Shown one piece after another: positions 1 to 57,517 of a stretch of DNA of 64,000 bases. The notes beneath the pieces are model-generated. The model had not been told where the DNA came from and ran no database searches. It saw only the letters and a program-made list of their open reading frames with translations. Source of the DNA: Peronospora farinosa (taxonomy: Eukaryota > Oomycota > Peronosporomycetes > Peronosporales > Peronosporaceae); the NCBI GenBank assembly GCA_947646735.1, contig CANTFK010000661.1:1-64000 (forward strand). Reading direction: 5' to 3'. Numbering within the stretch: the first letter of the stretch is position 1; each line of letters opens with the position of its first letter. The position numbers and the translations under genes are program-made.

Positions 1-1200
1 TTTTCTTCGTTGGGTCCTGCGGATTGTTCTCCACCAACGTTCGCTCCCCTTCGGGGCCCCTGTCTCTCTGGTCCCTTGTCCCTGACCCACGGTCTATCCT
101 CCGAATCCAACTAGATTCTGGGACTCCCACATCACAAAAACAACACTTCACCACATCCGCGCATAGCTCCCACTCTCGTGGACCCAGACCTGTTCATCGG
201 CTATATTTGCCTCGGCTCCATTATCTTGTTGGCCCTACCTCATCCATCCCGAACTCGTCAATTTTTGGGGCTTCTTTGCTCAGGCTGACTTCTGCTGGTT
301 GGTTCCCGTCAAAAGTGTCTTCTCCTACCTCCTAGTCAGGCGGTTCTGACTCGGGGCTCCTCGGATGAACGCTCAGCACTGTAGTAACCACTGAGGCTTG
401 GGCCCCTGTTCGTGACAATATTCTTTCTGGGGTCTTATACTGGGATTTCTCGACCATCGGACCTTGGTATCCTTCTTCTTGAAAGGGTTCGGAGTCTTCT
501 TCGTCAGTGGTAGCTTGGTAGGCCACGTTCTGTCATTCAGCATACCTCCTAAAACCTACTGACACAAATCCTTAAGATCGAGGGACCCGGTCCTTTGGTT
601 AGCCAAATGCCCAGTTTAGTGTCTTCATGCAGAATTAAGTTCTTGTCACTAACATTGGTGACCCTTAAACACTGGCGTCGTCTATACCCCTGTACCATTG
701 TTGTCACCCATCGTTCTCCACGGGTAATCCATAATTTCCACTGGTCTGATACAGATCTTTTCAATGGAACTTACACGAACTTAGTCACTGACAGATTCAC
801 ATACTGGCCCAATTTCACTTCCAAAATATGTCCGCTATACAAGGTCTTGCGACCTTCCAGCTGGCTTCGCACTTCATCTGGTAAGCAAATAGTTCCATCT
901 GCCATGTCCAATCGTATTCCGGCTGGCACCATAAAATCCATTCCCAGGGGTACATCCTGACCAACCCGGTAACCAACCCATACATCGAAAAAATATACCA
1001 ATACTCCATTAAGCGTAATCTTCACTTTTGTTCGTCCTTCCGTGGTGTATACCACTTCTCCAATACCCACACACTCTTGTCTCTCGCTCGTATCGATTTG
1101 GCAGCCTACCTTACGAGCAAAGGCGGTATCCAAAATAGATAACTCGGCACCGTAATCGAAGGGCAGATTCGCGCGAGTATTTTTGACCTTCCCAGAGGCC
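1..1200 (-). pseudogene. gypsy C protease region and pol linker, broken
   Basis: Minus-strand fragments lying after gag. The stretch from about 1165 to 771 reads like a retroviral-type aspartic protease: an FDYGAELSI active-site-like segment followed by DTAFARKVGC, then an ILxx-type strand region, with LGMDFM further on. The expected active-site DSG/DTG is here DYG, a variant I associate with this oomycete gag-pol family. Positions 764-549 continue as a linker (SDKNLILHEDTKLGIW) that precedes reverse transcriptase in the family, and 526-332 as an acidic linker. Stops and frame changes separate the pieces. The polymerase itself is beyond the left edge. Confidence 0.7.
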
Positions 1201-1459
1201 TTGGACTGCTTAAACCACTTTTATGGAGCATGATGCTTCCAGTATCCTCTTGATTCTCTCGACAATAATTCCAGCATCATCACCGGCTCTTCCCGTGTAT
1301 ATTCATTGGATATATGTGCATAGGCCACAACAGCTAAAGAATTAATACAAAAGTCCGATGTATTTCCAATCAATTCTTTCTCCTTAACGAAATTTTCCAC
1401 CGGATGCTTCTCCACAAATGCATAAATGTAGCAATCAGAACGCTCGGCTCGTACCAGAT

Positions 1460-3948
1460 TTAAACCTGGTGAGAGTCCCTATTTAAAATATTCTCGGCAG
1501 CCTCTGGCAGCTGTCCCGCATGCTTGGTCGGGTTGTACCATTGGCGAATCAAGTTGTAAAACGCCTCCATCTGGCACTTCCCCGCGTCGTGGATTTCGTT
1601 ACAACCGCGACACACAAACAAACAGCGGTCGGCCGGGTGCCCCATCTTTCCACATCGTTCGCATACTAGTCGCTTCCAACAGTCCAGGTCCCCATGCTTC
1701 CTGGATCCACAATGGGTGCACTTCGTCAGCGGGGCCTCTGGACCCGGTCTTTGTCCGGGGCCCTCCGGCGCAAACCGGCCCTATCCGGATTCGGGTCCTG
1801 ATGGTCTCGAGGTCCATCCACGTCCCGAGGACTACCAGTATGGGCTTCGGTCGCCGCCGCAAAAATTCGTCTCAGGTCTCCCTCCCTCTTAAATCCACTG
1901 GAGCTGGACTCTTGCTCACCTTCACTTCCTGATGTAGCTCGAATAGCTTGGACAGGACGTCTTGGTTGATTTTTGGTATACTCTCGGTCAGGGGGGGTCG
2001 GGGCCTTTTGGCGAAACTTGCTTGAGCCAAACAGGAACTTTCCGTGACGCGCCTTCGCTCGCTGGCGCGCTAGCAGAACTTCTTTCAGGTCATCTGCATC
2101 CAAATCTGAGCATGGTGAGCTGGTCCGCCAGTTCTCGATCGTCCAAAGTCTCCACGTAATGTTCTACATGTTCACGTTTCACCTGAGGGAGGTCCGTTTC
2201 ATTTTTTAACTTGGCTCTGAGCCCCGCCACGTTCAAACGGTACAAGTATTCCAGTGGTGACTCGTCGGATCTCTTCCTTGCATGATAATACTGCCGGGCC
2301 CCAGACACACCTAGGCCGCAGAAGTGGGCTTCAATTTCTTGCAAAAGTAGCTTCCAGTCGCCAAGTACCGTCCGACCCAATTATCGGTACCAGTTCTGAG
2401 CCGGGCCCGTGGGAAGGCCCCCAAAAATAAGACATTTCTCATTGTCTGGGGCCTGGTCTCGGATAAATGCAGTATTCACTTTGAAGCTCCAGCTTCGGGC
2501 ACGGCCCTCATCATGGTCCCTTCGTTGAATTGCTTTAAGTCCGATGAGGCCGACACTCGTATATGGGGAATAACCGTAGGGGCCCCACCTGCTGAAGCCG
2601 TGGCCACAGTCGCTCGCGCCGACGTAGCCGGGAACGTCAAATCATCCGGATCGTACTCTCCTTTAGAAGACTCTGCTGATTCCATGTCCACATCCGGAAA
2701 TTCACGTGGTGACCCCAGGTGATCGGCTCTCTGGGAGGGCCCAGGGTAAAGTGAACCTCAGCCCCTCATGATCTGTCCCCTGTCCGATGCGTTTCGGGTG
2801 GGTCCCTGCTCTTTTAGGAACTTGGCCATCGCCTTTTCGAAATATGACTGGAGCGCACCAGGGGAACCTGACTCAGGCTTTACATTCTGATCAATTGCTG
2901 TTCCCAGCGACCCTGGCTCCACTTTGCACCGGGCTCCTGTCACATCTTCACGTACTTGTGGGCTGGGCCTTCGGTATCGCTGCATCCATCTTTCCTGCTT
3001 CGAGCAACGCTGCACCGGATGGCCCCAGCTGCATCCGATCCACGGTATCCATTAGCGCCAAGACCATAGACGAAGTGGCCAACTCGTACTGGGACCTCAA
3101 TAACGATTCAACGTGGGAACCTGCTGAAGAGCCTAGGCCAGGAACAGCTGCTGTGCCCACATGACGGGGTACCTCCTTGTGGGAAATCTCGCCCACTAAC
3201 GCCTTGATATGACCATGCAAGGCTACCAGGGTCTTCTTCAGGGTCTAGAACCCAAAATCAAAGAGGGTCTCAGCAATCAAATTTCCAGCGGCCATCCCGG
3301 CTTCGTGAAGCAGGTTCATCAGGGCCTTGAGAACCTCCAGGTCTGTCGTTGCGATGGGCAGGGACGTTATCGGGAAATGGACCTGAACTAGTATCTTGAA
3401 CTTGAGCGTCTTCATCACCGGATCTTTTCGCAAGAACGTCTTCAACTTTCTCGATTGATATGCTTCTTCCTGGTCCTCTTCTGTCCAATCCCTGCTAGCC
3501 ACACCTTGGCTCTCTCCCGACTCGTCCGTCGTGTCTCCTCCTCTCATGCCTTCAACTTGGCAATCCTCTTTTTCTTGTTCTTAGGCACAGATGATTCTTG
3601 AGTAGTGGCATGGGAGACTTGTTTCGGGGTCCCTTGTTTTTTAGCTTTCGCTGTCAAACTTGGGACCCCTGGACCATAAAATTTATTATGGCCCATGTTG
3701 TCTTCTTAAACGAAGACGTAAGGGGGAGGATTTTGTGGTTGGTTTTTCATCATATTCCACCTTGACCTCAATAGCAGAGCTCCTCCCCGGGCTCTGCAGG
3801 TCCTCAGATCCTCAGATCCTTCTTAATCACTGGTGATCCGGGTTCCAGTGTCTTGGTTGTCCCTTGGTCCATCTTGACCGTTGTCTTTTCTACTTCGTGG
3901 GACTAACGGTGAAATCCCGCGTCTCCCGAAGATCCGGGCACGCGCACC
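1460..3948 (-). pseudogene. gypsy C gag polyprotein, frameshifted
   Basis: Gag of the family C element, broken into several frames. It would start at the ATG that overlaps the primer-binding site near 3950. The best preserved part is the Retrotrans_gag-like core at 2380-2090, with the motif YYHARKRSDESPLEYLYRLN, continuing in another frame at 2103-1726 (MDADDLKEVL...). The C-terminal cysteine region at 1645-1460 contains MGHPADRCLFVCRGC and a KCQMEAFYNLIRQWYNPTKH stretch. Upstream fragments at 3547-3245 and 3220-2948 are less conserved linker sequence. The frame breaks show a dead copy. Capsid function is inferred from the family. Confidence 0.8.
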
Positions 3949-3949
3949 A
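3931..3949 (-). promoter_or_regulatory. primer-binding site of gypsy C, left copy
   Basis: The minus strand reads TGGTGCGCGTGCCCGGATC one base after the LTR end. A start with TGG next to an LTR is the expected complement of a tRNA CCA end. I could not assign the tRNA. The mirror copy is at 15704-15722. The gag ATG overlaps the first base pair of the site. Confidence 0.6.
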
Positions 3950-3950
3950 T

Positions 3951-5066
3951 TGTGGTGGAGTGGATTCTCAAACGACGTGAGAGAACCACAAACACACAAA
4001 GCGCCGGACTGCCGACTTACGGAGGGGGTACCCCGATACCGTGTCGCGTCAACCTTGGGTCTCACCTTGTGTACCCGTCGGCTTGGCTGGTCTTGCTCCT
4101 CGTTAGACGCAGAAGACTTAAAGACTTGGTCTTGTATGGAGGGACTTGGGGGCCACGAGTGGATATGCTTCACTCGGGCCCAGGGTTTCTTGGGCTCAAT
4201 CGACTGGGTCGAGATCAGCGCACCTGGTACTATGTACCCCTTCGGTGGCTAACGGTTTCTTGGTCTTTCGACCCCTTTTCTTGTTCCCCGTAGGGAAACC
4301 GCTTCCTATAGCGGGTCGTAGAATGGGTACGAACCCACAGGCCAAAATACTTCCTGGGGTTCGTTCGAGCTTGAATCTTACCACACGTCTGTCTTCAACG
4401 GGGGGGGCCAAAATAAATCCCTCCCCCGGAACAGGTAGGTAGATCGAAACAAGCTCGCACTTGAGTCTTGACACTAACTTGACACCTCAGGCCAACTATC
4501 CTGAGGTTCAACTTGCGTTGCTTGAGCCGTCACCTCACCTGACGTCGGTGGGCCAAAGGGTATCCCGCCCGGAATAGGTGAGGTGACGGAGAAGCTTGAA
4601 GGAGGCGCTTGGAGCTGCCACGTGTAATGCAAATTCGAGTGTGTTTATTTTCCTTATACTTTGTATGTTTTTTCTTGCCTAACCCTAACCCTTTGATCTG
4701 GATAGTGCCACGTGTCGACTCTTGGAGGAAGAACTGGCTCCTTGGTACCTTTACTTTCTGTGATCTTCGATATTATGTGTACCGATTCTGCACCCTCGGG
4801 CATTGAGCCCTGGTACCCCTGGGCCCCTGTACCTCTGGTACCCCTAGGCCCCTGTACCCCTGGGCCCCGGTACCCTGTACCTGTACCCTGTATCCTGGGG
4901 CCTGTACTGACTCCGCACGTCTGGGTCCTTATATTCTTAATAAGGCTGGGGCCTGGTGTGAGGTTGGAGATCTGCGAGGTCACTCCCTCGATGGAGTGAC
5001 CAGAAATTCCCTTGCTCTCTGTTCCCATTCCCTTTAAGCTCTGATTTTCCCTGGCACTTCACCACA
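3951..5066 (-). repeat. LTR of gypsy family C (left palindrome arm), 5' LTR
   Basis: A 1116-bp LTR beginning TGTGGTGAAGTGCCAG (minus strand, from 5066) and ending in CTCCACCACA at 3951, so it has TG...CA ends and a longer terminal inverted repeat. On the minus strand the next bases are A and then TGGTGCGCG, a typical primer-binding-site start. Inside lie a short GTACC-rich block (about 4805-4915) and a CCCTAACCCTAACCC telomere-like tract (about 4680-4695). Near-identical copies are at 14587-15702, 16580-17370 and (reversed) 19860-20430. Confidence 0.8.
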
Positions 5067-5407
5067 GATACGGATCTCCCTCAGTATGAATTGGGGTGAT
5101 TTTCTCACCTCTCCCAACATCATAGGGAGGTGGCAGAGCACTTGGTGCAGGGACTTGGTAAACAAGCTTTGACCAATCTCTTAAATTGTCCTCCTGAGCA
5201 TCATGTTACTCAGTTGGAGCAATTAGAGGCGTTTGTGCTCGGATAGCGTTGAAATGCGTCCAAGGCAACAGCCAAGCAACGACTGAGTCCATTAATAAGA
5301 CTTAGGATGAGCTTTTGCGTGAGCAATCTTGGAATGAGGCGCTCCACAGAACTGTTGTTGCTGATGCGTTTCCATCATAGAAGATCTTTAAGTCAAAGAT
5401 TCGTGCC

Positions 5408-5894
5408 ATGTACCAGCCGCCTAACAATGAAGGATTACTCCAGGCGCGATTCTTTGGAGCACGAAAGGTGAAACGATCTCTGCAAGATTATGTGCAGGAG
5501 ATGCGTTCGCTGTCCGCGTCCATTAATGTGGGTCTGATACCGGAACATATTAAGGTGCCTACGTTCATAAATGGACTACGACATGGCCCATCGCGTCAGG
5601 ATCTTTTTAGAAAGGTGCCAAAGCCGTTGGATGGTTTAGGAGCAATCCTACAACAGTTCCTCCGCGACAGCTTTTTATAATCCGTCAGCCGAGAAGTCGG
5701 ATGTCACTCCAATGGAGTCAGGTAATGCAGACGTGGTCTGCTACAAGTGCGGAAAGCACGGCCATATGATGGCTCGCTGCTATGCCAAACTTGCTGCTGG
5801 TGCTAAGACGCCCTGCAGGAAGGATCCCTACCCGAAGGGTTGGTGCGAAAAACCAGCGTGCACGAAGCACGGGTTCAGCACCTACCCAAGATGA
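5408..5894 (+). pseudogene. gypsy A gag fragment with zinc knuckle, left arm
   Basis: Remnant of a second gypsy family on the plus strand. Positions 5408-5680 encode a gag-like helix-rich stretch (DYVQEMRSLSASIN, then FINGLRHGP). Positions 5712-5894 carry a CCHC knuckle, CYKCGKHGHMMARC, spaced C-x2-C-x4-H-x4-C. The sequence between 5070 and 5408 looks like the N-terminal part of the same gag with stops. A stop near 5680 separates the two readable parts. The mirror copy is at 13759-14245 on the minus strand. Confidence 0.75.
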
Positions 5895-6059
5895 GTTAGG
5901 AAATGTGGGAGCGCAGTAGGGGCGGGATGCCCTAATGTCGCGGACTCTGAAGCTACCCCTATGTTCAGAGCTATCAAACAAATGGGTAGCATAGTCTCTG
6001 AGGTGCCAAAGGTCGGACCTCAACCCTTTTGGTCGATAGCGCTCGAGTACGAGGCTATG

Positions 6060-6693
6060 ACCAAGTGATGACCCTTCTCGTTGATTCGGGTGCATCACAG
6101 ATTTTGTACAACTCGCAGCTCTGAAAAGGAGACCGGCGAGTTATGAGTCGCTTTGCCAGTATGGTAAGCGAGAAGAGGCAACCGTTCGTTTAGCGAACGG
6201 CGCGCTCGTTAAATCGGAGGTAGTTCAGGTTGAACTCTCTTTCAGCTTCAGTGACTTCTCTTGTAAAGAGAAGTTTACTGTGCTAGGTATGGAGAGTCCG
6301 TATGACCTCATCCTAGGAATGCCTTGGTTGGATAAACACCAACCATGGATTGAATGGCGTACACGCACAGTCGCTAGATCTACGCATGACACCGTGAAGG
6401 ATGTGCTCTTGCGAGAGGCTTATGTGACTGATGCTGTGTCCAACACAGTCGAGGGTGCAATGACGGTATGTCAATCGACACCAGGTACTACCCAGCTCGT
6501 TGAGCCTGGTGTAGTTGAAAGTGTCCTGACAGAAAGTCAGGTGACACAAATTTCTACCCAGCTCGAGGAGACTGGTGTAGTGAATGGGACGATGACAAGT
6601 ATTCATGCGTCTAATGGTCCTGCACAGAGTCAAAAGCCTTTGGCAGTTGATGGTGGGCTGACAGGAATTCAAGCGCCACAAGAACCGGCATAG
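6060..6693 (+). pseudogene. gypsy A aspartic protease region, left arm
   Basis: Around 6070-6110 the plus strand encodes LLVDSGASQI, an intact retropepsin active-site motif. From 6280 it reads MLGMESPYDLILGMPWL, the typical flap-to-C-terminal motif (ILGMPWL) of gypsy proteases. A stop interrupts the segment between these two. After about 6370 the frame continues into a low-similarity linker with imperfect internal repetition (two copies of a TxxTQLxExGVV-like segment). The mirror copy is at 12960-13590, minus strand. Confidence 0.75.
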
Positions 6694-7107
6694 AGCCATG
6701 GGCCTGGTGCAGTTAGAAGGAGTGCGTATCAACGAAACCTTCTTCCAGGTCAAAGGTCGTGGTGACTCGAACAACGAGCAGCAGGCGTATTAAGACGATC
6801 GAGGGCACGTCGAAAAGAGCGATCCTTGGGACAGTCTCGGTTCAAGAGGACGGACCTACGAACGAGTTGTTCGAGGTCGTCGAAGACAAGATGCCGGAGG
6901 CATTCTCTGTTGAGGTGCTCCAACTTGTCTTGGCATCTGCCGAGTAGATAATAAAAATCTCTCGGAGATGACGTGAGATCTGTTCCTGTCCGAACTTAAG
7001 GAAGGAATGATCCACGAGATAGTCGCACCAGTTCCAGAAGAGAACGTGGTGGACTGTTGCTCGTCGTTCACAATGGATGAGAGCGTCTTGGAAACCGACA
7101 AGAAAAA

Positions 7108-7966
7108 ATGGTTCATTGTTCAAGGCTAGGATGCAGCCCGTTCTATGATGTTTTGTGGAAACACCGTGATATATTTCCAGCAGAAGTGCCGAGCCGCCTA
7201 CGGGCCGATAGGGACATCAGGAACGACATTGATCTGGAGCCTGACACCAAGTATTGTCTGACCAGGCAATGTCCGTTGCCGAAGGAACAAGCCGATTACA
7301 TCGATGAGTTCCTCGACAAGCGAGCTAAGGCGGAGCATGTACGTGAGAGCAAGTCGCCTCACTGCAGCCCGACCTTCTGTGTGCGTAAAGCAACAGGTGG
7401 ATGGCGCGTGGTTCATGCTTATAATAAGATGAACAGGGCCACCATTCCGTAGCAAACGCCAATCCCGCGGAAAGATGTCTTGTTGAACTCCATGGGTAAG
7501 TCAGCTATCTTTCGCGTTGGGTATGAAGAATCGTTACTACCAAGTTCTCATGAGAGATACTGATGTAGCCAAAACGGCAGTAAGCACTCCAAGCGGTATG
7601 CTGTGGGAGTGGCTTGTGATGCCACAAGGGTTGAAAAATGCTCCAGCAACATTCAATCTAGTGGTATGCGTCAGCACCGTGCCTACGCGCCCCATTACTT
7701 TGACGACGTATTCGTGCATAGTAGGGCGGAGGATGGTCTGAGCGCAATATAGTCGCACAAGCTTCATTTAGACGCTGTGTTGCAGACTCTGGGTGACGCC
7801 CAATTATACGTTAGCCTGCAAAAGTGCGTAATAAGGGTCCCCGAGATACCTGTACTGGAAACATTGTAGGTGCACACGGTGTACGAGCAGATCCAGAAAA
7901 GGTAAAGGCTGTAGAGGAATGGCCAGTCCCACGACACGTGAAGGATCTGCACCAATTCCTTGGGCA
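7108..7966 (+). pseudogene. gypsy A reverse transcriptase, N-terminal two thirds, left arm
   Basis: Broken reverse transcriptase domain. Recognisable in order: IFPAEVPSRL (about 7165), the DIDLEPDTKY segment, WRVVHAYNKMNRAT (about 7400-7445), MPQGLKNAPATF (about 7620), the YFDDVFVHS catalytic box (about 7690, in another frame), and VRADPEKVKAVEEWPVP running to DLHQFLG (about 7880-7965). The domain stops abruptly there, where the thumb and RNase H should follow, and fuses to gypsy B. At least two frameshifts make it inactive. Mirror copy at 11687-12545. Confidence 0.85.
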
Positions 7967-7969
7967 TGC

Positions 7970-9418
7970 CCAAAAGGCAATTAAATGTATGATTCATCTC
8001 GATCACCAAGAAATCATCATTACTGCGAAAGCCATCAAACGTGTACGGCAACGACACTTCGCGCCGCCATACGCGGTGTGGTTCCCGTCAGCCAACTTGA
8101 CGACGACTTGGCCAGGTCCCTCACGATCCTGAATGCTGGGAGGCAGCATCGATAGACAAGATTCACGAAAGAAATTATCCGTCGCTACTGATCCCAGGAG
8201 TGTATGTAGAGGTCGCCGGACACCGGAGACATGTAAACTGACAACAATCAGACGTGAATCACCACTCGTAGTAAGGGAATTTAACCGTGCGCGTAGCGCA
8301 GGAGGACTGGAGGGTTGGGCTGCCACCGGAAGACCCGGACATCCGCTCCTTCTAGTAGGGCACCCTTCACCTACTGGTCCCGACCGTTTTTTGGACGTGC
8401 GGCCGGTACAGCACCCTCATGATGGGCATCCACTACTTGCACCGATATCGGCGCTGGCGCACGGCACTCAGCCGCGCGATGTCCTGGATTGCGACAACGA
8501 AAGCAAACCATTTGACGCCCGGTGCGAGCGTCACCCTTATGGGGAGTGGCATGTCGTCGGTCACCCGACGACTCAATCACGTCGATCTCCATAGGCTCCG
8601 GACCAGAAGGCCGGGAACGGTGACGACCGAGGGTTTGACATTGGCCTTTGTGACCCTTTAGTCCTCACGGAGGGCAATAGCAACTGCCTCCTCCAATGTG
8701 GCAGTCTCCGCGCGCTCGAGCGATAAGCGGGTCTGCACTTCCCGCATACCATCCACAAAGACATTCACCTGCGTGTACATATCCATGGGGTGCGTGATGA
8801 TTGACGACACCAGATGCCTATCCATCTGCACGTAATCGCGCATCGTCATTTTACCCTGTCGCATCGACAGGAATCTTGATCGCACCAGTTTCTACTCTTG
8901 CGGTGGCTCGAAAGCAAGACGAAGATCGTCCTAGATGGTATCCAAGGTGGGGAATGCGTGCTCGTCTACAACGAGCTTACCAAGGGCCCACTCCTTGACC
9001 TCCCGATGAGGCGGGAAAGAAGAAAGTTGACCTTTGCCTGGGGTGCCTCAAGAAGTCTCGAGGCGATGGCGATATCAACTTCTCGGAACCACCGATTCAG
9101 CGACAACCGGTCCTTACCTTCTCTAGAGTAGGAGGAGGTTTACATCTTCACGGCCTCATTACGTGAAGGTCGCGAGGGAGTTAAGCCTCGCCGGTTGGAT
9201 TCGGCAAGCTCGCGTGCCATTGACTCATGTATGTCGAGATGTTGCGCATCAGGGGTCGCTGATCTCATCAGCGACGCGACGAATGCCTCTCCCGACATCG
9301 TCGCGAGGCGATTAAGGGCATCCCACTTAACACCAGTAAGATGGGGGAAGGTCGCGTGCTCCAAAAATAAATCTAGAGCGTCAAAGTACGACGATTCGCT
9401 CATCCCAAACTCGAACAT
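7970..9418 (-). pseudogene. gypsy B gag and protease, left arm
   Basis: A third gypsy family, minus strand. In coding order: a gag N-terminal piece at 9418-9140 (MFEFGMSESSYFDALDLFLE), a gag core at 8885-8658 (QGKMTMRDYVQMDRHLVSS), a CCHC knuckle at 8592-8371 (CFRCRNPGHRAAEC), and a protease tail at 8057-7970 that reads YTFDGFRSNDDFLVIEMNH and then CLLGMP. Frames change between the pieces. The protease stops at the family A junction at 7960-7973. The same block occurs in mirror image at 10235-11683. Confidence 0.8.
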
Positions 9419-9444
9419 AGGATGGACTACTAAGTGCTACCAGG

Positions 9445-9781
9445 TGGAACGGGGCTAGAACGTACCGTCACTAGCTTACACGCGCGCTTGAGGAAGACTC
9501 AAGCCCAAGTATTAGGTACTAAGTAAATTTAACTCTGATTTTTTTTGCTTTAATTTGTACTAATTACGAAGATTTTAGTCGTAATAAATACGACAGTGTT
9601 CCCGCCTTTCGGGTACCACACAATTTCAGGTTGATTTATCATTGGTCCATATTGGGACTTTAGTCCCCAATAATAGACCAATAATAAATTGCCACGCTGT
9701 GCCCGCTATTCGGGCCCAGCACCTGTCTACATATGTAATTGTTTATTTGTGTTAACTGTGTGTGTAATGTAGCCCATTACA
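9445..9781 (-). repeat. LTR of gypsy B, left arm
   Basis: An AT-rich segment with several hairpins, for example GTGCCC and GGGCAC halves near 9695-9715. On the minus strand it begins near 9781 with a TGGGC(T/C)ACATYACACAC sequence and ends just before the gag of family B. It is the mirror partner of 9872-10208. LTR borders are approximate because only this inverted pair is available. Divergence between the arms rises toward the loop in this segment. Confidence 0.6.
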
Positions 9782-9871
9782 CACGATTTACGAGCAGACC
9801 CAGAAAAGGTAAAGACTATCAAGGTATGGCCAGTCCCACGACACGTGAAGGATCTGCGCCAATACTTAGTA
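9782..9871 (+). other. palindrome loop: reverse transcriptase fragment of gypsy A type
   Basis: The single-copy spacer between the arms. It reads RADPEKVK...WPVPRHVKDLRQYL, a diverged copy of the reverse transcriptase piece at 7872-7960 in the left arm and in the same orientation as it. By eye about 12 of 87 aligned bases differ. It ends at the same codon (DLxQxL) at which the left-arm copy is cut off. Confidence 0.8.
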
Positions 9872-10208
9872 TGATGGGCCACATCACACACACACCATCA
9901 ACATAAATAAACAATTGCATATGTAGACAGGTGCTGTGCCCGAATAGTGGGCACAGCGTGGCAATTTATTATTGGTCTATTATTGGGGACTAAAGTCCCA
10001 ATATGGGCCAATGATAAATCAACCTGAAATTGTGTGGTACCCGAAAGGCGGGAACACTGTCGTATTTATTACGACTAAAATCTTCGTAATTAGTACAAAT
10101 TAAAGCAAAAAAAATCAGAGCTAAATTTACTTAGTACCTAATACTTGGGCTTGAGTCTTCCTCAAGCGCGCGTGTAAGCTAGTGACGGTACGTTCTAGCC
10201 CCGTTCCA
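9872..10208 (+). repeat. LTR of gypsy B, right arm
   Basis: Begins TGATGGGCCACATCACACAC and is followed after about 335 bp by gag of family B. It contains a stem at about 9931-9958 (GTGCCC/GGGCAC) and a long imperfect stem around 9965-10020. The start coincides with the edge of the palindrome loop. End placed at the base before a TGGTAGCAC sequence that could be a primer-binding site; approximate. Confidence 0.6.
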
Positions 10209-10234
10209 CCTGGTAGCACTTAGTAGTCCATCCT

Positions 10235-11683
10235 ATGTTCGAGTTTGGGATGAGCGAATCGTCGTACTTTGACGCTCTAGATTTATTTTTGGAGCACGCG
10301 ACCTTCCCCCATCTTACTGGTGTTAAGTGGGATGCCCTTAATCGCCTCGCGACGATGTCGGGAGAGGCATTCGTCGCGTCGCTGATGAGATCAGCGACCC
10401 CTGATGCGCAACATCTCGACATACATGAGTCAATGGCACGCGAGCTTGCCGAATCCAACCGGCGAGGCTTAACTCCCTCGCGACCTTCACGTAATGAGGC
10501 CGTGAAGATGTAAACCTCCTCCTACTCTAGAGAAGGTAAGGACCGGTTGTCGCTGAATCGGTGGTTCCGAGAAGTTGATATCGCCATCGCCTCGAGACTT
10601 CTTGAGGCACCCCAGGCAAAGGTCAACTTTCTTCTTTCCCGCCTCATCGGGAGGTCAAGGAGTGGGCCCTTGGTAAGCTCGTTGTAGACGAGCACGCATT
10701 CCCCACCTTGGATACCATCTAGGACGATCTTCGTCTTGCTTTCGAGCCACCGCAAGAGTAGAAACTGGTGCGATCAAGATTCCTGTCGATGCGACAGGGT
10801 AAAATGACGATGCGCGATTACGTGCAGATGGATAGGCATCTGGTGTCGTCAATCATCACGCACCCCATGGATATGTACACGCAGGTGAATGTCTTTGTGG
10901 ATGGTATGCGGGAAGTGCAGACCCGCTTATCGCTCGAGCGCGCGGAGACTGCCACATTGGAGGAGGCAGTTGCTATTGCCCTCCGTGAGGACTAAAGGGT
11001 CACAAAGGCCAATGTCAAACCCTCGGTCGTCACCGTTCCCGGCCTTCTGGTCCGGAGCCTATGGAGATCGACGTGATTGAGTCGTCGGGTGACCGACGAC
11101 ATGCCACTCCCCATAAGGGTGACGCTCGCACCGGGCGTCAAATGGTTTGCTTTCGTTGTCGCAATCCAGGACATCGCGCGGCTGAGTGCCGTGCGCCAGC
11201 GCCGATATCGGTGCAAGTAGTGGATGCCCATCATGAGGGTGCTGTACCGGCCGCACGTCCAAAAAACGGTCGGGACCAGTAGGTGAAGGGTGCCCTACTA
11301 GAAGGAGCGGATGTCCGGGTCTTCCGGTGGCAGCCCAACCCTCCAGTCCTCCTGCGCTACGCGCACGGTTAAATTCCCTTACTACGAGTGGTGATTCACG
11401 TCTGATTGTTGTCAGTTTACATGTCTCCGGTGTCCGGCGACCTCTACATACACTCCTGGGCTCAGTAGCGACGGATAATTTCTTTCGTGAATCTTGTCTA
11501 TCGATGCTGCCTCCCAGCATTCAGGATCGTGAGGGACCTGGCCAAGTCGTCGTCAAGTTGGCTGACGGGAACCACACCGCGTATGGCGGCGCGAAGTGTC
11601 GTTGCCGTACACGTTTGATGGCTTTCGCAGTAATGATGATTTCTTGGTGATCGAGATGAATCATACATTTGATTGCCTTTTGG
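10235..11683 (+). pseudogene. gypsy B gag and protease, right arm
   Basis: Mirror image of the left-arm copy, now on the plus strand: gag N-terminal piece at 10235-10513, gag core at 10768-10995, CCHC knuckle CFRCRNPGHRAAEC at 11061-11282, and a protease part ending in CLLGMP near 11690. One visible difference from the left arm is an Asp in place of Asn in the NHTF(D/N)CLL segment. Truncated at the junction with family A and frameshifted, hence not functional. Confidence 0.8.
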
Positions 11684-11686
11684 GCA

Positions 11687-14245
11687 TGCCCAAGGAATTG
11701 GTGCAGATCCTTCACGTGTCGTGGGACTGGCCATTCCTCTACAGCCTTTACCTTTTCTGGATCTGCTCGTACACCGTGTGCACCTACAATGTTTCCAGTA
11801 CAGGTATCTCGGGGACCCTTATTACGCACTTTTGCAGGCTAACGTATAATTGGGCGTCACCCAGAGTCTGCAACACAGCGTCTAAATGAAGCTTGTGCGA
11901 CTATATTGCGCTCAGACCATCCTCCGCCCTACTATGCACGAATACGTCGTCAAAGTAATGGGGCGCGTAGGCACGGTGCTGACGCATACCACTAGATTGA
12001 ATGTTGCTGGAGCATTTTTCAACCCTTGTGGCATCACAAGCCACTCCCACAGCATACCGCTTGGAGTGCTTACTGCCGTTTTGGCTACATCAGTATCTCT
12101 CATGAGAACTTGGTAGTAACGATTCTTCATACCCAACGCGAAAGATAGCTGACTTACCCATGGAGTTCAACAAGACATCTTTCCGCGGGATTGGCGTTTG
12201 CTACGGAATGGTGGCCCTGTTCATCTTATTATAAGCATGAACCACGCGCCATCCACCTGTTGCTTTACGCACACAGAAGGTCGGGCTGCAGTGAGGCGAC
12301 TTGCTCTCACGTACATGCTCCGCCTTAGCTCGCTTGTCGAGGAACTCATCGATGTAATCGGCTTGTTCCTTCGGCAACGGACATTGCCTGGTCAGACAAT
12401 ACTTGGTGTCAGGCTCCAGATCAATGTCGTTCCTGATGTCCCTATCGGCCCGTAGGCGGCTCGGCACTTCTGCTGGAAATATATCACGGTGTTTCCACAA
12501 AACATCATAGAACGGGCTGCATCCTAGCCTTGAACAATGAACCATTTTTTCTTGTCGGTTTCCAAGACGCTCTCATCCATTGTGAACGACGAGCAACAGT
12601 CCACCACGTTCTCTTCTGGAACTGGTGCGACTATCTCGTGGATCATTCCTTCCTTAAGTTCGGACAGGAACAGATCTCACGTCATCTCCGAGAGATTTTT
12701 ATTATCTACTCGGCAGATGCCAAGACAAGTTGGAGCACCTCAACAGAGAATGCCTCCGGCATCTTGTCTTCGACGACCTCGAACAACTCGTTCGTAGGTC
12801 CGTCCTCTTGAACCGAGACTGTCCCAAGGATCGCTCTTTTCGACGTGCCCTCGATCGTCTTAATACGCCTGCTGCTCGTTGTTCGAGTCACCACGACCTT
12901 TGACCTGGAAGAAGGTTTCGTTGATACGCACTCCTTCTAACTGCACCAGGCCCATGGCTCTATGCCGGTTCTTGTGGCGCTTGAATTCCTGTCAGCCCAC
13001 CATCAACTGCCAAAGGCTTTTGACTCTGTGCAGGACCATTAGACGCATGAATACTTGTCATCGTCCCATTCACTACACCAGTCTCCTCGAGCTGGGTAGA
13101 AATTTGTGTCACCTGACTTTCTGTCAGGACACTTTCAACTACACCAGGCTCAACGAGCTGGGTAGTACCTGGTGTCGATTGACATACCGTCATTGCACCC
13201 TCGACTGTGTTGGACACAGCATCAGTCACATAAGCCTCTCGCAAGAGCACATCCTTCACGGTGTCATGCGTAGATCTAGCGACTGTGCGTGTACGCCATT
13301 CAATCCATGGTTGGTGTTTATCCAACCAAGGCATTCCTAGGATGAGGTCATACGGACTCTCCATACCTAGCACAGTAAACTTCTCTTTACAAGAGAAGTC
13401 ACTGAAGCTGAAAGAGAGTTCAACCTGAACTACCTCCGATTTAACGAGCGCGCCGTTCGCTAAACGAACGGTTGCCTCTTCTCGCTTACCATACTGGCAA
13501 AGCGACTCATAACTCGCCGGTCTCCTTTTCAGAGCTGCGAGTTGTACAAAATCTGTGATGCACCCGAATCAACGAGAAGGGTCATCACTTGGTCATAGCC
13601 TCGTACTCGAGCGCTATCGACCAAAAGGGTTGAGGTCCGACCTTTGGCACCTCAGAGACTATGCTACCCATTTGTTTGATAGCTCTGAACATAGGGGTAG
13701 CTTCAGAGTCCGCGACAGTAGGGCATCCCGCCCCTACTGCGCTCCCACATTTCCTAACTCATCTTGGGTAGGTGCTGAACCCGTGCTTCGTGCACGCTGG
13801 TTTTTCGCACCAACCCTTCGGGTAGGGATCCTTCCTGCAGGGCGTCTTAGCACCAGCAGCAAGTTTGGCATAGCAGCGAGCCATCATATGGCCGTGCTTT
13901 CCGCACTTGTAGCAGACCACGTCTGCATTACCTGACTCCATTGGAGTGACATCCGACTTCTCGGCTGACGGATTATAAAAAGCTGTCGCGGAGGAACTGT
14001 TGTAGGATTGCTCCTAAACCATCCAACGGCTTTGGCACCTTTCTAAAAAGATCCTGACGCGATGGGCCATGTCGTAGTCCATTTATGAACGTAGGCACCT
14101 TAATATGTTCCGGTATCAGACCCACATTAATGGACGCGGACAGCGAGCGCATCTCCTGCACATAATCTTGCAGAGATCGTTTCACCTTTCGTGCTCCAAA
14201 GAATCGCGCCTGGAGTAATCCTTCATTGTTAGGCGGCTGGTACAT
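11687..14245 (-). pseudogene. gypsy A gag, protease and reverse transcriptase, right arm
   Basis: Mirror image of 5408-7966. In coding order on the minus strand: gag 14245-13973, zinc knuckle 13941-13759, protease about 13590-12960, reverse transcriptase 12545 to about 11687. The same truncation after DLHQFLG and the same frame breaks occur as in the left arm, so the damage predates or was copied by the inverted duplication. One residue difference (Ser for Ile in the antisense frame near 13720) is among the few substitutions seen. Confidence 0.8.
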
Positions 14246-14586
14246 GGCACGAATCTTTGACTTAAAGATCTTCTATGATGGAAACGCATCAGCAACAACA
14301 GTTCTGTGGAGCGCCTCATTCCAAGATTGCTCACGCAAAAGCTCATCCTAAGTCTTATTAATGGACTCAGTCGTTGCTTGGCTGTTGCCTTGGACGCATT
14401 TCAACGCTATCCGAGCACAAACGCCTCTAATTGCTCCAACTGAGTAACATGATGCTCAGGAGGACAATTTAAGAGATTGGTCAAAGCTTGTTTACCAAGT
14501 CCCTGCACCAAGTGCTCTGCCACCTCCCTATGATGTTGGGAGAGGTGAGAAAATCACCCCAATTCATACTGAGGGAGATCCGTATC

Positions 14587-15702
14587 TGTGGTGAAGTGCC
14601 AGGGAAAATCAGAGCTTAAAGGGAATGGGAACAGAGAGCAAGGGAATTTCTGGTCACTCCATCGAGGGAGTGACCTCGCAGATCTCCAACCTCACACCAG
14701 GCCCCAGCCTTATTAAGAATATAAGGACCCAGACGTGCGGAGTCAGTACAGGCCCCAGGATACAGGGTACAGGTACAGGGTACCGGGGCCCAGGGGTACA
14801 GGGGCCTAGGGGTACCAGAGGTACAGGGGCCCAGGGGTACCAGGGCTCAATGCCCGAGGGTGCAGAATCGGTACACATAATATCGAAGATCACAGAAAGT
14901 AAAGGTACCAAGGAGCCAGTTCTTCCTCCAAGAGTCGACACGTGGCACTATCCAGATCAAAGGGTTAGGGTTAGGCAAGAAAAAACATACAAAGTATAAG
15001 GAAAATAAACACACTCGAATTTGCATTACACGTGGCAGCTCCAAGCGCCTCCTTCAAGCTTCTCCGTCACCTCACCTATTCCGGGCGGGATACCCTTTGG
15101 CCCACCGACGTCAGGTGAGGTGACGGCTCAAGCAACGCAAGTTGAACCTCAGGATAGTTGGCCTGAGGTGTCAAGTTAGTGTCAAGACTCAAGTGCGAGC
15201 TTGTTTCGATCTACCTACCTGTTCCGGGGGGAGGGATTTATTTTGGCCCCCCCGTTGAAGACAGACGTGTGGTAAGATTCAAGCTCGAACGAACCCCAGG
15301 AAGTATTTTGGCCTGTGGGTTCGTACCCATTCTACGACCCGCTATAGGAAGCGGTTTCCCTACGGGGAACAAGAAAAGGGGTCGAAAGACCAAGAAACCG
15401 TTAGCCACCGAAGGGGTACATAGTACCAGGTGCACTGCTCTCGACCCAGTCGATTGAGCCCAAGAAACCCTGGGCCCGAGTGAAGCATATCCGCTCGTGG
15501 CCCCCAAGTCCCTCCATACAAGACCAAGTCTTTAAGTCTTCTGCGTCTAACGAGGAGCAAGACCAGCCAAGCCGACGGGTACACAAGGTGAGACCCAAGG
15601 TTGACGCGACACGGTATCGGGGTACCCCCTCCGTAAGTCGGCAGTCCGGCGCTTTGTGTGTTTGTGGTTCTCTCACGTCGTTTGAGAATCCACTCCACCA
15701 CA
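14587..15702 (+). repeat. LTR of gypsy family C (right palindrome arm)
   Basis: 1116-bp LTR with TGTGGTGAAGTGCCAG at the start and CTCCACCACA at the end, exact mirror partner of 3951-5066. It is followed by A and then TGGTGCGCGTGCCCGGATC, so here too it acts as a 5' LTR. The GTACC block is at about 14740-14850 and the telomere-like tract GGGTTAGGGTTAGG at about 14958-14973. Confidence 0.8.
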
Positions 15703-16451
15703 ATGGTGCGCGTGCCCGGATCTTCGGGAGACGCGGGATTTCACCGTTAGTCCCACGAAGAAGAAAAGACAACGGTCAAGATGGACCAAGGGACGACCAA
15801 GACACTGGAACCCGGATCGCCAGTGATTAAGAAGGATCTGAGGATCTGAGGACCTGCATAGCCCGGGGAGGAGCTCTGCTATTGAGGTCAAGGTGGAATA
15901 TGATGAAAAACCAACCACAAAATCCTCCCCCTTACGTCTTCGTTTAAGAAGACAACATGGGCCATAATAAATTTTATGGTCCAGGGGTCCCAAGTTTGAC
16001 AGCGAAATCTTACAAACAATGGACCCCGAAACAATTCTTCCAAACTGCCAACGGTGCCCAAGGACACGAAGAAGAAACAGAATCGATTTGAAGCAATGCG
16101 AAGTCACGATGAGTAGAGGGGAGAGTTCATCTTGGGAAGGCCAAGATGATGCAAGAAGGAGGCGGTATTTGTTCTACATTTACGAATGGGTCAGGTTACA
16201 GATTCGAGAGTGCGGCAGCACAGAAGAAAATGCGAAGTATTGTGCAGCCCCGAAGGCTCAAGGCCCCGAGGGTCCAGGGCCTGAGGATACAGAGCCCCAC
16301 TCGGACGAGGATCAGTATATAAAATTGAAGTGACTATGGAGAAGCATTGAAATGAAATGACCACATGGACATTTACTGCTATTCCAAAAGGACAGGACAA
16401 GGGTGCACGTGGGCTTGTCGCAGTTCGGAAGACCAGCGCACAGGGGACAAC
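15703..16451 (+). pseudogene. gypsy C gag N-terminal fragment, right copy
   Basis: Starts with the ATG at 15703 (MVRVPGSSGDAGF), overlapping the primer-binding site at 15704-15722. The reading is interrupted by stops but continues as a QGTPKQ...VPKDTKKK segment near 16000-16060, homologous to VPKNKKKR on the minus strand near 3575-3600 of the left copy. Positions 16019-16333 form an open frame ending in an acidic tail. The element is cut off at 16452, where another LTR begins. The part after 16003 belongs to a diverged family member. Confidence 0.6.
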
Positions 16452-17433
16452 TGTGGTGAAGTGCCAGGAGAATCGGGGCCCAGGGTACCAAGGGCCCAGG
16501 GTACAAGGGCCCAGGCCTCGCAAGGTCCCAAGGTTCAATCGAGGGTCGCCAGGGACAGGGTTTCCAGTCACCAGGGAGTTGTGGTGGAGTGGATTCTCAA
16601 ACGACGTGAGAGAACCACAAACACACACAGCGCCGGACTGCCGACTTACGGAGGGGGTACCCCGATACCGTGTCGCGTCAACCTTGGGTCTCACCTTGTG
16701 TACCCGTCGGCTTGGCTGGTCTTGCTCCTCGTTAGACGCAGAAGACTTAAAGACTTGGTCTTGTATGGAGGGACTTGGGGGCCACGAGTGGATATGCTTC
16801 ACTCGGGCCCAGGGTTTCTTGGGCTCAATCGACTGGGTCGAGAGCAGTGCACCTGGTACTATGTACCCCTTCGGTGGCTAACGGTTTCTTGGTCTTTCGA
16901 CCCCTTTTCTTGTTCCCCGTAGGGAAACCGCTTCCTATAGCGGGTCGTAGAATGGGTACGAACCCACAGGCCAAAATACTTCCTGGGGTTCGTTCGAGCT
17001 TGAATCTTACCACACGTCTGTCTTCAACGGGGGGGGCCAAAATAAATCCCTCCCCCGGAACAGGTAGGTAGATCGAAACAAGCTCGCACTTGAGTCTTGA
17101 CACTAACTTGACACCTCAGGCCAACTATCCTGAGGTTCAACTTGCGTTGCTTGAGCCGTCACCTCACCTGACGTCGGTGGGCCAAAGGGTATCCCGCCCG
17201 GAATAGGTGAGGTGACGGAGAAGCTTGAAGGAGGCGCTTGGAGCTGCCACGTGTAATGCAAATTCGAGTGTGTTTATTTGCCTTATACTTTGTATGCTTT
17301 TCTTGCCAAACCCTAACCCTTCGCTCTGGATGGTACCACGTGTCGACTCTTGGAGGAAGAACAACTGACTCTTTTAGGACATGGGACTTGTACCGGCTCT
17401 GCACTTTAAGGAAGCCTTGTGCCTTCTATTCCC

Positions 17434-17922
17434 TGGGGTCCACCGGTCACCTGGGTCCACCGGTCACCTGGGTCCACCGGTCACCTAGGTCCACCGGTCA
17501 CCTGGGTCCACCTGTTGTCTGGGGTCCACCTGTCACGGGGGGCCCACCTGTCACCTGGGGTCCACTGGACCTGGGGTCAACCTGTCGCCGGGGGTCCACC
17601 TGTTACCGGGGGTCCACCTGTCGCGGGGGTCCACCTGTCACCTGGGGTCCACTGGCCACCTGGGTCAATCTGTCACCTGGGTCAACCTGTCACTGGGGGG
17701 TCAATCTGTTACCTGGGGTCCACCGGTCACCTGGGTCCAACAGTCACCTGGGTCCACCTATCGCCTGGGGTCCACCTGTCACATGGGACCCACCAGTTGC
17801 CTGGGGTCCACTGGTCACCTGGGTCCACCGGTCACCTGGGTCATCCTGTCACCTGGGGTCCACCGGTCACCTGGGTCCACCTGTTGTCTGGGACCCACCT
17901 GTTACCTGGGGTCCACCTAAGC
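17434..17922. repeat. 18-bp minisatellite, about 27 units
   Basis: Tandem array of a unit close to GGTCCACCGGTCACCTGG with many variants (CCGGTCAC, CTGTCACC, CTGTTGTC). Unit length is mostly 18-19 bp, so all three plus-strand frames stay open over long distances. It sits inside the expanded family C LTR. Confidence 0.9.
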
Positions 17923-18115
17923 TGCCCTAGCAGCACTAGTCCTTTGGTCTGTAGCGTAGGACATCCTAGTACCTTCTCCGAACTCGGGACCTTGGACCAG
18001 TTCGGGGCCCTGGTCACTCCCTGTCACTCATTCAAGAGAGTGACCGAGATCTTTCACGCCAGTTATTATAATAACTTCGAAGGCCCCCCATTTCTCTGGC
18101 ACTTCTCCACAGCTG

Positions 18116-18400
18116 GGCCCCGGTACCCCGGTACCCCTGGGCCCCGTTACCCTGGTACCCTGGTACCCCGGTACCCCTGGGCCCCGTTACCCTGGTACCC
18201 TGGGACCCTGGTACCCTGGGACCCTGGTACCCTGGTACCCTGGGACCCTGGTACCCTGGTACCCTGGGACCCTGGTACCCTGGGCCCCGTTACCCTGGTA
18301 CCCCGGGCCTCTGGGCCTCGGTATCCTGGGCCCTGTACCCTGGGCCCTGTACCCTGTACCCTGGGCCTCGGTACTCCGGTACCCTGCACCCTGTACCCAG
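18116..18400. repeat. GGTACC-rich (KpnI-site) satellite
   Basis: Short irregular tandem repeats of GGTACCCTGG and GGGACCCTGG, with many GGTACC palindromes. An expanded version of the GTACC block found at 4805-4915 and 14740-14850 in the shorter LTR copies. Confidence 0.9.
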
Positions 18401-18415
18401 GTCCCTGATACCCTG

Positions 18416-19140
18416 GTCTCTTGTACCGTGGGCCCTTGGAGCCTGTACTGTCTCTGCACGTAGAAATACCTTGTACCTTCTTTGAACTTAGGACCTTGGA
18501 CCACCTCGGGGCACTGGACCCTTCGAATCCTAGTGTGCGCCCGGTAGGGTAACCTTGTACCTTTGACCCTGGACGTTCGATACCCCTGTCTCCGATAGCT
18601 GGTACCCCTGTCCCTGGTGCCCTGTCCCTGGTGATTGGAAACCTTGTCCCTGGTTACTAGAAACCCGCGTCCCTGGTGACTGGTACCCCTGTCCCTGGTG
18701 ACCCTCGGTTGAACCTTGGAACCTTGCGAGGCCTGGGTTCTTGTACTCTGGTACCCTAGTCTCTTGTACCGTGGGCCCTTGGACCTTGGATCCTGTACTG
18801 TCTCTGCACGTAGAAATACCTTGTACCTTCTTTGAACTTAGGACCCTGGACCACCTCGGGGCACTGGACCTTTCGAATCCTAGTGTGCGCCCGGTAGGGT
18901 AACCTTGTACCTTTGACTCTGGACGTTCGATACCCCTGTCTCCGATAGCTGGTACCCCTGTACCTGGTGCCCTGTCCCTGGTGATTGGAAACCTTGTCCC
19001 TGGTTACTAGAAACCCTGTCCCCGGTAACTGGTATCCCTGTCCCCGGTAACTGAAAACCCTGTCCCTGGTGACTAGTACTCCGGTCCCTGGTGACTGGAA
19101 ACCCTGTCCCTGGTGACCCTCGATTGAACCTTGGGACCTT
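18416..19140. repeat. two direct units of about 343 bp inside the expanded LTR
   Basis: Unit 1 starts at 18416 and unit 2 at 18759, both with GTCTCTTGTACCGTGGGCCC, followed by the same sequence through AACCTTGTACCTTTGA and a run of CCCTGTCCCTGGTGACTGG-type short repeats. Unit 2 carries extra short repeats. The reverse complement of the same unit occurs twice at 19228-19850. Confidence 0.85.
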
Positions 19141-19227
19141 GCGAGGCCTGGTCCCTTGTACCCTGGGGCCCCTGTACCCTGGGGCCTTGGTACCCTGGGC
19201 CCCGATTCTCCTGGCACTTCACCACAG

Positions 19228-19850
19228 GTACAAGGTTGCCCTACCGTGCGCACACCAGGACCCGAAAGGGCCAGTGCCCCGAGGTGGTCCAGGGTCCTAA
19301 GATCAAAGAAGGTACAAGGTATTTCAACGTGCAGAGCCATTACAGGCTCCAAGGTCCAAGGGCCCACGGTACAAGAGACTAGGGTACCAGGGTACAAGAA
19401 CTCAGGCCTCGCAAGGTTCCAAGGTTCAATTGAGAATCACCAGGGACAGGGGTACCAGTCACCAGGGACGCGGGTTCCAAGTCACCAGGGACAGGGTTTT
19501 CAGTCACCAGGGACAGGTCACCAGGAAAAGGGGTACCAGCTACCGGGGACAGGGGTACCAGTCACCGGGGACAAGGGTACCAGTCACCGGGGACAGGGGT
19601 ATCGAACGTCCAGGGTCAAAGGTACAAGGTTGCCCTACCGTGCGCACACCAGGACCCGAAAGGGCCAGTGCCCCGAGGTGGTCCAGGGTCCTAAGATCAA
19701 AGAAGGTACAAGGTATTTCAACGTGCAGAGCCATTACAGGCTCCAAGGTCCAAGGGCCCACGGTACAAGAGACCAGGGTACCAGGGTACAAGAACTCAGG
19801 CCTCGCAAGGTTCCAAGGTTCAATTGAGAATCACCAGGGACAGGGGGTAC
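19228..19850. repeat. two inverted units matching 18416-19140
   Basis: Reverse complements of the 343-bp unit: one around 19228-19480, one around 19610-19850, each containing GTACAAGAGAC preceded by GGGCCCACG. Together with 18416-19140 they form a second, imperfect palindrome centred near 19180. Confidence 0.8.
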
Positions 19851-20430
19851 CAGGGCCCAATGCCCGTGGGTGCAGAATCGGTTCACAGAATATCGAAGAT
19901 CACAGAAAGTACAGGTACCAAGGAGCCAGTTCTTCCTCCAAGAGTCGACACGTGGCACTATCCAGATCAAAGGGTTAGGGTCAGGCAAGAAAAAGCATAC
20001 AAAGTATAAGGAAAATAAACACACTCGAATTTGCATTACACGTGGCAGCTCCAAGCGCCTCCTTCAAGCTTCTCCGTCACCTCACCTATTCCGGGCGGGA
20101 TACCCTTTGGCCCACCGACGTCAGGTGAGGTGACGGCTCAAGCAACGCAAGTTGAACCTCAGGATAGTTGGCCTGAGGTGTCAAGTTAGTGTCAAGACTC
20201 AAGTGCGAGCTTGTTTCGATCTACCTACCTGTTCCGGGGGAGGGATTTATTTTGGCCCCCCCGTTGAAGACAGACGTGTGGTAAGATTCAAGCTCGAACG
20301 AACCCCAGGAAGTATTTTGGCCTGTGGGTTCGTACCCATTCTACGACCCGCTATAGGAAGCGGTTTCCCTACGGGGAACAAGAAAAGGGGTCTAAAGACC
20401 AAGAAACCGTTAGCCACCGAAGGGGTACAT

Positions 20431-22372: not shown

Positions 22373-22511
22373 GTTTCTACGTGTCTGATAGGTCAAAATT
22401 TTGATGTTGAAGTACAAGCTTGTAACCAATCAACAACAGATAAAAAGATCGCGTCTCTGACCAATCTGATTCTCAGTAAGTTTCTACTTCACATTTAAGT
22501 AAATTTTAACG

Positions 22512-56658: not shown

Positions 56659-56817
56659 TGTCGAGTAAAGGGCAACTTGCATGGACAGTGGTCTTCGAAT
56701 GATTTGGATTGAGTGATCAGTTTATGAGGGGATTTCCACATTCGTTTTAGTAGTAGTTTAACTCTTTATACCACTTTTCATTTGGCAGCACAGAAAAGTA
56801 GTTGAGCTTTCGTTACA
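56659..56817 (+). repeat. 5' LTR of copia element
   Basis: Begins TGTCGAGTAAAGGGCAAC and ends TTTCGTTACA. Matches 61082-61240 with scattered substitutions and no large indel. A short LTR is usual for copia elements of oomycetes. Confidence 0.9.
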
Positions 56818-56829
56818 GGTTATGATCCC
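56818..56829 (+). promoter_or_regulatory. copia primer-binding site, half-tRNA initiator Met type
   Basis: GGTTATGATCCC directly follows the LTR end. It differs in one base from GGTTATGAGCCC, the complement of the initiator tRNA-Met anticodon arm used as a half-tRNA primer by copia of Drosophila and relatives. The gag ATG (56822) lies within it. Confidence 0.6.
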
Positions 56830-57517
56830 AAATGCGTTGGCTCCTAATGACATCCTCACGGATGACAATTACTTCATGTGGGAATTTAATGCACGCATGA
56901 CACTCGCACGCAAGGATCTTTTGGATCACGTTTTGATTAAGCCAGAGCCGGCAGTGCTGCGGGAGAATCCCGGATGGAAAGTCGCCGATATGAAGGCTCT
57001 GGCTGTACTGGTGAAGCTACTCTCTCCAACCTATCAGTGCATGGTTCGGGAATGTGAGTCTGCGTTTGAAGCTTGGAAGGTTCTGAAGACGTTCTTTGCG
57101 AAGAAAAATCTTCACAACCGAGTGCAACTTCGGAAAGAATTACATGAATTTGTGATGGAGACTGGTGCGAGTCTTATGGACCATCTACTAAAATTTGATG
57201 AGCTGTGTCTCAAGCTCGGAGCTGCCGGTGACAGCATGGATGATGATGAAAAGATAGTTTTGCTTTTGGGAAGTTTATTATTCGATTATGAAGATATGGT
57301 GCACATCATCGAGGCGCACAACAACGTGACGCTGTTGGACGCAAAAGAGATGCTCCGCAGGGGGTATGACATTCTTCAGAAGCAAGACAAAAAGGAAACG
57401 CTTTCAAGAAACATGCTCAATGTTATGAACCTCGACACTTTTAAGGTAACCGAGGACACCGTGGACAAAAAAGAAAATCGAGATCGCTTCCAACCTTCTA
57501 AGAAGATAAAAGGCTAA
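56822..57517 (+). CDS. copia gag protein
   Basis: Intact frame of 231 residues, the only undamaged gene of the element. It begins MIPNALAPNDILTDDNYFMW, continues with ALAVLVKLLSPTYQCMV and FEAWKVLKTFFAKKNLHNRV, and has MDHLLKFDELCLKLGAAGD with a VLLLGSL segment. This is the UBN2-type gag of copia elements. The zinc knuckle lies after the stop, at about 57530-57585, in a downstream frame (CFGCGRHGNKRSQC). The intact frame may just be chance survival. The ATG overlaps the primer-binding site. Confidence 0.85.
   Translation: MIPNALAPNDILTDDNYFMWEFNARMTLARKDLLDHVLIKPEPAVLRENPGWKVADMKALAVLVKLLSPTYQCMVRECESAFEAWKVLKTFFAKKNLHNRVQLRKELHEFVMETGASLMDHLLKFDELCLKLGAAGDSMDDDEKIVLLLGSLLFDYEDMVHIIEAHNNVTLLDAKEMLRRGYDILQKQDKKETLSRNMLNVMNLDTFKVTEDTVDKKENRDRFQPSKKIKG

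Follow-up and report, generated by a model that had tools for sequence, protein, structure and literature searches.

Organization of the palindrome and its flanks

The window analyzed here, the whole stretch of 64 kb, is the beginning of contig C183 (643,695 bp) in a genome of 46.85 Mb assembled in 274 contigs. Pieces of three retroelement families, X, Y, and Z, lie in its first third and are arranged as follows.

156 to 3950, minus strand: family Z, subfamily A, with a protease, a zinc-knuckle-like stretch, a gag-like part, and the leader; 3646 to 3950 lie inside the palindrome
3951 to 5066, minus strand: LTR_Z, the LTR of family Z, left arm, with TG..CA ends
5067 to 7965, plus strand: broken piece of family X without LTR, left arm; 5079 to 7965 match loci L023 to L027 and L037
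7963 to 9444, minus strand: 5' internal part of family Y, left arm, with a 3-bp overlap (GGC) at the joint with X
9445 to 9781, minus strand: LTR_Y, the 5' LTR of family Y, in the left arm; its end next to the spacer is undecayed in alignments of family copies
9782 to 9869, plus strand: spacer, a fragment of X matching arm positions 7873 to 7956, with an LTR_Y terminus on either side
9870 to 10208, plus strand: LTR_Y of the right arm, with decay at its spacer end (137 columns there hold 10 private changes; the left counterpart holds 0)
10209 to 11690, plus strand: 5' internal part of Y, right arm, mirror of 7963 to 9444
11688 to 14586, minus strand: X piece, right arm, mirror of 5067 to 7965
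14587 to 15702, plus strand: LTR_Z, right arm, mirror of 3951 to 5066
15703 to 16577, plus strand: leader and gag-like start of Z, subfamily B, truncated at 16577, beyond the end of the palindrome at about 16007
16579 to 20430: further LTR_Z pieces (16579 to 17362 and 19844 to 20430), with CCCTGG-type minisatellites between them

A palindrome is present in this sequence. Comparison of the window with itself by blastn gave one inverted match at 3611 to 16042, with 99.05% identity and an axis at 9826.5, the point around which a preliminary description had placed a long mirror. Global base-by-base alignment of the arms located them at 3646 to 9781 and 9870 to 16007, with inner ends at 9781/9870 and a spacer of 88 bp. 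The outer border is sharp at about 3646/16007: 6 differences fall in 3611 to 3645, and the next is found only at 3794. The central 772 bases fold into one hairpin (z = -77 against 20 shuffles). A chance origin is excluded by the length and identity of the arms, and the palindrome is without evident function.

The three families have paired LTRs with TG..CA ends, which identifies them as LTR retrotransposons; from their motifs, with limited Pfam support, they are tentatively placed in the Ty3/gypsy group, whose hallmark is a gypsy-type protease and RT in gag-pol order, and the RT assignment is likewise tentative. The fuller copy of X at L037 has 604-bp LTRs that are 99.67% alike, and the fuller Y element at L036 has LTRs of about 350 bp that are 97.4% alike, with an RT-like stretch on the opposite strand. 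A solo LTR_Y in L034 is accompanied by a 5-bp target duplication, GACCA. Matches to LTR_Z stop at 5066 to 5069 in L013, L041, L042, and L043, and the flanks differ in L041 and L042. The X piece, whose bases 5067 to 5078 are assigned by position only, lacks about 206 to 218 bp at 5357/5359 that are present in five other copies. Copies of Y match from 7963 onward and have in common a different sequence upstream of this point. The coding part of the left-arm Z extends outward into the left flank, where Pfam Asp_protease_2 scores above the cut-off at 771 to 1220 and zf-CCHC scores below it at 1460 to 1780.

The term retroelement chimera, used in the preliminary description, applies only loosely, since in the left arm X is read from the plus strand and Y from the minus strand, so that no single element spans the two, and Z contributes an LTR of its own. 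A single chimeric retroelement made by fusion of X and Y through template switching was rejected because Y is opposite in sense to X. The junction-spanning open reading frame gave four partial matches in other sequence sets, with 30 to 43% coverage, none of them shown to cross the junction. Nesting of these families appears to be frequent: at L033, L035, L041, and L042, an X piece has a Y or Z element within it or immediately next to it, at varying points.

To the right of the palindrome, the minisatellites at 17432 to 19853 have units of about 8, 17, and 22 bp and lie between the LTR_Z pieces; similar CCCTGG-type arrays on C55 and C179 are made of tandem units of about 2 to 3 kb. Beside the array, the open reading frame at 20741 to 22429 (minus strand, 562 residues) matches a protein of Peronospora effusa with 533 identical residues out of 541, and this single protein puts the genome near that species. 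Its relatives carry names such as CST complex subunit CTC1 and replication protein A OB domain-containing, and the protein had no Pfam match. Six further open reading frames in the window match a kinase, phospholipase D, a DEAD-box helicase, an aminotransferase, a glycosyltransferase, and a copia-type gag. The gag frame (Pfam Retrotran_gag_2) lies at 56762 to 57517, and the LTR ends of this copia-type element may be represented by a direct repeat of 163 bp (93%), with copies at 56659 and 61082.

The two arms as copies of one another

Whole-genome searches placed the LTR_Z/X junction only in the two arms among 40 scored of 669 candidates, and the X/Y junction likewise only in the two arms among 40 scored of 689. 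Since both internal junctions are confined to these arms among the scored matches, the arms are copies of each other. A tblastn match with the open frame of one X copy breaks into 7 pieces in either arm, and these agree between the arms in frame and in stop count, in keeping with the old frameshifts said earlier to be common to them.

Private mutations were counted against 5 to 13 family rows per stretch, leaving out this place's own loci and L024, which overlaps L037, and dropping columns with a gap in an arm or with fewer than three family letters; a few overlapping loci enter the same copy twice. At 5082 to 9440, both arms jointly have 326 private columns out of 4336, the left arm alone has 3, and the right arm alone has 1, a pattern expected from recent inverted duplication or arm-to-arm conversion, the two processes named in the preliminary description. 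These mutations indicate that the elements first decayed and were then recently copied. One could imagine that the same composite inserted twice, independently and in opposite orientations, given that X, Y, and Z are abundant and are found elsewhere inside or beside one another; but both composite junctions are present at this locus only, among the scored matches, and 326 private mutations are common to both arms, and on these two grounds we rejected this origin as extremely improbable.

Three zones of divergence along the arms

The arms had been described as one unit with scattered substitutions. The arm alignment instead has three zones of unequal divergence, and the 26 difference events between 3646 and 9781 cluster at both arm ends. 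The outer zone (3646 to 4422, 777 bp) contains 9 events, two of which are 1-bp indels; 1-bp changes at 4400 and 4422 correspond to the two compensating homopolymer changes noticed before. The middle zone or core (4423 to 9531, 5109 bp) contains only 4 substitutions and no indels, each a state found in one arm only, so that the arms are near-identical well beyond the central repeat. The inner zone (9532 to 9781, 250 bp) contains 13 events, one of which is a 2-bp indel. Both ends differ from the core (outer, p = 5e-6; inner, p = 7e-15).

Divergence at the inner end is polarized. Against 19 rows of family copies, in which one copy (L006/L036) is counted twice, the tail at 9645 to 9781 has 10 right-private changes, 0 left-private, 2 shared, and 1 ambiguous (10:0 asymmetry, p = 0.002). 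Private change thus amounts to about 7% at the right LTR_Y end and to zero at the left. In the rest of LTR_Y (9441 to 9644), 5 of 204 columns (2.5%) are shared private, 0 are left-private, and 1 is right-private. At the spacer, the left LTR_Y terminus is canonical and the right one altered.

The outer end has a different character. At 3651 to 4740, 11 of 1084 columns are private to both arms, 4 to the left, and 3 to the right, with 2 ambiguous. At 3950 to 4734, identity is 99.6% between the arms, 99.4% between either arm and the LTR_Z piece at 19844, and 98.7 to 98.9% between the arms and the piece at 16579. All five difference sites in this stretch are states found in one arm only, which fits later mutation as well as older paralogy. 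Outside the border, the left flank is of Z subfamily A, like a copy on C10 that runs on across 3646, and the right flank is of subfamily B, collinear across the border with seven loci (L011, L012, and L014 to L018, on C55, C224, C37, and C179; L011 and L012 overlap). The two subfamilies cease to be alike at the palindrome border, and we therefore rejected this border as the true limit of the duplication.

The spacer matches arm X (7873 to 7956) at 89% over 84 bp. Both have two derived sites that are absent from 8 other X copies; within the 84 matched bases, the spacer has 6 further private changes and arm X has 3. Given these private changes in spacer and arm, copying from the X of the arm during the event that made the palindrome is not favored. 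The X end points are similar, at 7956 or a few bases beyond for the spacer and at 7965 for the arm. The common derived sites and similar end points hint at an older inverted duplication of X.

Inverted pairs at other loci

Four other contig starts, 8 kb each, were examined. One of them, that of C274 (L052, C274:1-8000), carries a second inverted retroelement pair, of a related element, at 1 to 2828 and 3248 to 6016. Its copies are 99.89% alike in the core (601 to 2400), the best of four other aligned copies reaching 94.5% (a rounded 94% in a wider search), and 97.17% alike in the outer 600 bp with gaps ignored (94% with gaps). Core private columns number 64 shared, 1 left, and 1 right of 1794; outer private columns number 10 shared, 8 left, and 4 right of 600 (p = 3e-6). 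The start of C272 has a 747-bp inverted pair at 91% and a shorter one at 81%, that of C186 only a 235-bp pair at 69%, and no inverted pair was found in the 8 kb at the start of C7. No inverted pair of at least 200 bp was found in six pieces of the window interior, and two of five other loci have short inverted pairs at 68 to 71%. Further along C7 (206200-217600), L038 and L039 are inverted Y-related copies, 97 to 99% alike over about 3.2 kb and about 4.5 kb apart. A direct pair on C5 has no step, with 99.72% identity in the core and 99.68% in the outer part.

Location at contig starts raises the question of an assembly or amplification artefact, in which one real copy was read twice, through a fold-back read or a wrong walk through LTR_Y and LTR_Z. 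The window begins at base 1 of C183, so that the palindrome lies 3.6 kb from the contig end; the pair on C274 also starts at base 1 of its contig; and amplification together with missed adaptors is described as a source of artificial palindromes (PMC6218980). Several features argue against a single molecule read twice. The flanks are unlike on the two sides, and none of the scored matches is a near-identical copy of the left flank: 33 of the 39 other scored places reach the end of the query (3641 to 3645), and the best other place is at 92%. The inner LTR ends differ between the sides, the core differences are the 4 substitutions without indels, and both arms carry private changes in their outer parts, as do both copies on C274. 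We consider an artefact improbable, and the palindrome is probably a genuine genomic structure.

The contrast between ends and core could also mean that the palindrome is older and that repeated gene conversion between the arms has kept them alike, failing near the loop and the outer border. Diverged ends around a homogenized middle are expected if conversion stops at the loop and where homology is lost. The collinear copies of the C274 pair step from the outer to the core value given above, whereas the direct pair on C5 has no step, a comparison of one case with one control. The spacer, 11% off arm X yet carrying two derived sites in common with it, looks as if it had aged outside conversion. 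Repeated conversion in an older palindrome covers most of the pattern, but it leaves unexplained the polarized changes of the inner tail, 10 on the right against 0 on the left. It is the main rival reading of the locus, in our estimate somewhat less likely than the one preferred below.

A model for the origin of the palindrome

Our tentative preference, held with somewhat less than even confidence, is that the palindrome arose as an inverted duplication, through fold-back copying or gap repair that involved two facing LTRs. As read from the sequence, the right side is an old, decayed nest of LTR_Y, Y, X, and LTR_Z beside the 88-bp X fragment, and decay is the same in both arms over the 5.1 kb that follow. 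The LTR_Y end that faces the other way across this fragment looks younger, an order of LTR ages that we infer from their decay. A younger Y element would have inserted in opposite orientation, 88 bp from the old LTR_Y. A break near the younger LTR_Y may then have let a single strand fold back, with the two LTR_Y ends pairing around the loop. Synthesis would have run outward along the right side, copying Y, X, and LTR_Z in turn, and the copy would finally have been joined to a separate Z element through LTR_Z/leader homology. Such a joining would account for both the greater divergence of the outermost 0.8 kb and the membership of the flanks in two Z subfamilies. It would also explain why the arms are hardly closer to each other in their outer part (99.6%) than to the local piece at 19844 (99.4%), since the outer ends would have been local relatives before the event, as expected under fold-back copying.

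Several observations fit fold-back copying: the composite junctions confined to the two arms among the scored matches, the 326 jointly private columns, and the unequal zones. The spacer is flanked by an LTR_Y pair with unequally decayed ends (10 right, 0 left), which may predate the duplication, and the outer border falls in LTR_Z/leader homology, where subfamilies A and B part. Other observations count against it. Decay in the right tail exceeds that in the remainder of the same LTR (2.5%), an excess for which the model gives no reason. The right-private sites 9532 and 9646 sit among shared-private ones at 9519 to 9664; therefore, the switch is not one clean point. A longer alignment scores site 9756 as left-private, and the outer part also has private variants common to both arms (the 11 of 1084 columns above). 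The break, the other end of the young element, and its target duplication were not seen at the locus.

Wider meaning and comparison with known systems

Long palindromes are unstable and have been studied mostly in yeast, in cancer cells, and on sex chromosomes. Among the literature titles and abstract openings in the matches listed, none concerned palindromes in an oomycete genome. The palindrome described here is a natural example of an already known kind of rearrangement. If real, it preserves, in the genome of an oomycete crop pathogen, a natural trace of copying between facing LTRs of retroelements, in which the start of the event, the copied stretch, and the end are all legible in the patterns of mutation. 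More broadly, facing LTR insertions in this downy-mildew lineage might repeatedly seed inverted duplications or conversions, producing near-perfect palindromes from decayed retroelements, LTR-driven local rearrangement, and contig breaks; we regard this generalization as speculative and on present evidence unlikely. Palindromes at contig ends call for caution, as they need read support before they can serve as evidence of rearrangement.

The structure resembles the artificial palindromes of long reads, as these are outlined in PMC6218980, in that an inverted copy lies across a short loop, in this case close to the end of a contig. Artificial palindromes are copies of one molecule, whereas here the flanks, the inner LTR ends, and the outer ends differ by side. 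A likeness to mammalian Y palindromes (PMC6790999) lies in the long, near-identical arms around a spacer, for which arm-to-arm conversion is plausible; those palindromes carry genes, and the one described here contains only broken retroelements.

For fold-back copying, our preferred reading, the relevant comparison is with the fold-back duplications of yeast, which, as presented in PMC10622511, have an inverted repeat at the center and delta elements or PAU genes at the outer end. The yeast events of that report were break-induced in laboratory cells, whereas the event here is inferred from one assembly. In contrast to the yeast cases described there, two 337-bp LTRs separated by an 88-bp spacer form the central repeat, and about 5 kb would have been copied. 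The likeness lies in the plan proposed for the whole: an imperfect central inverted repeat, one side copied outward from it, and an outer end in a dispersed repeat (PMC10622511).
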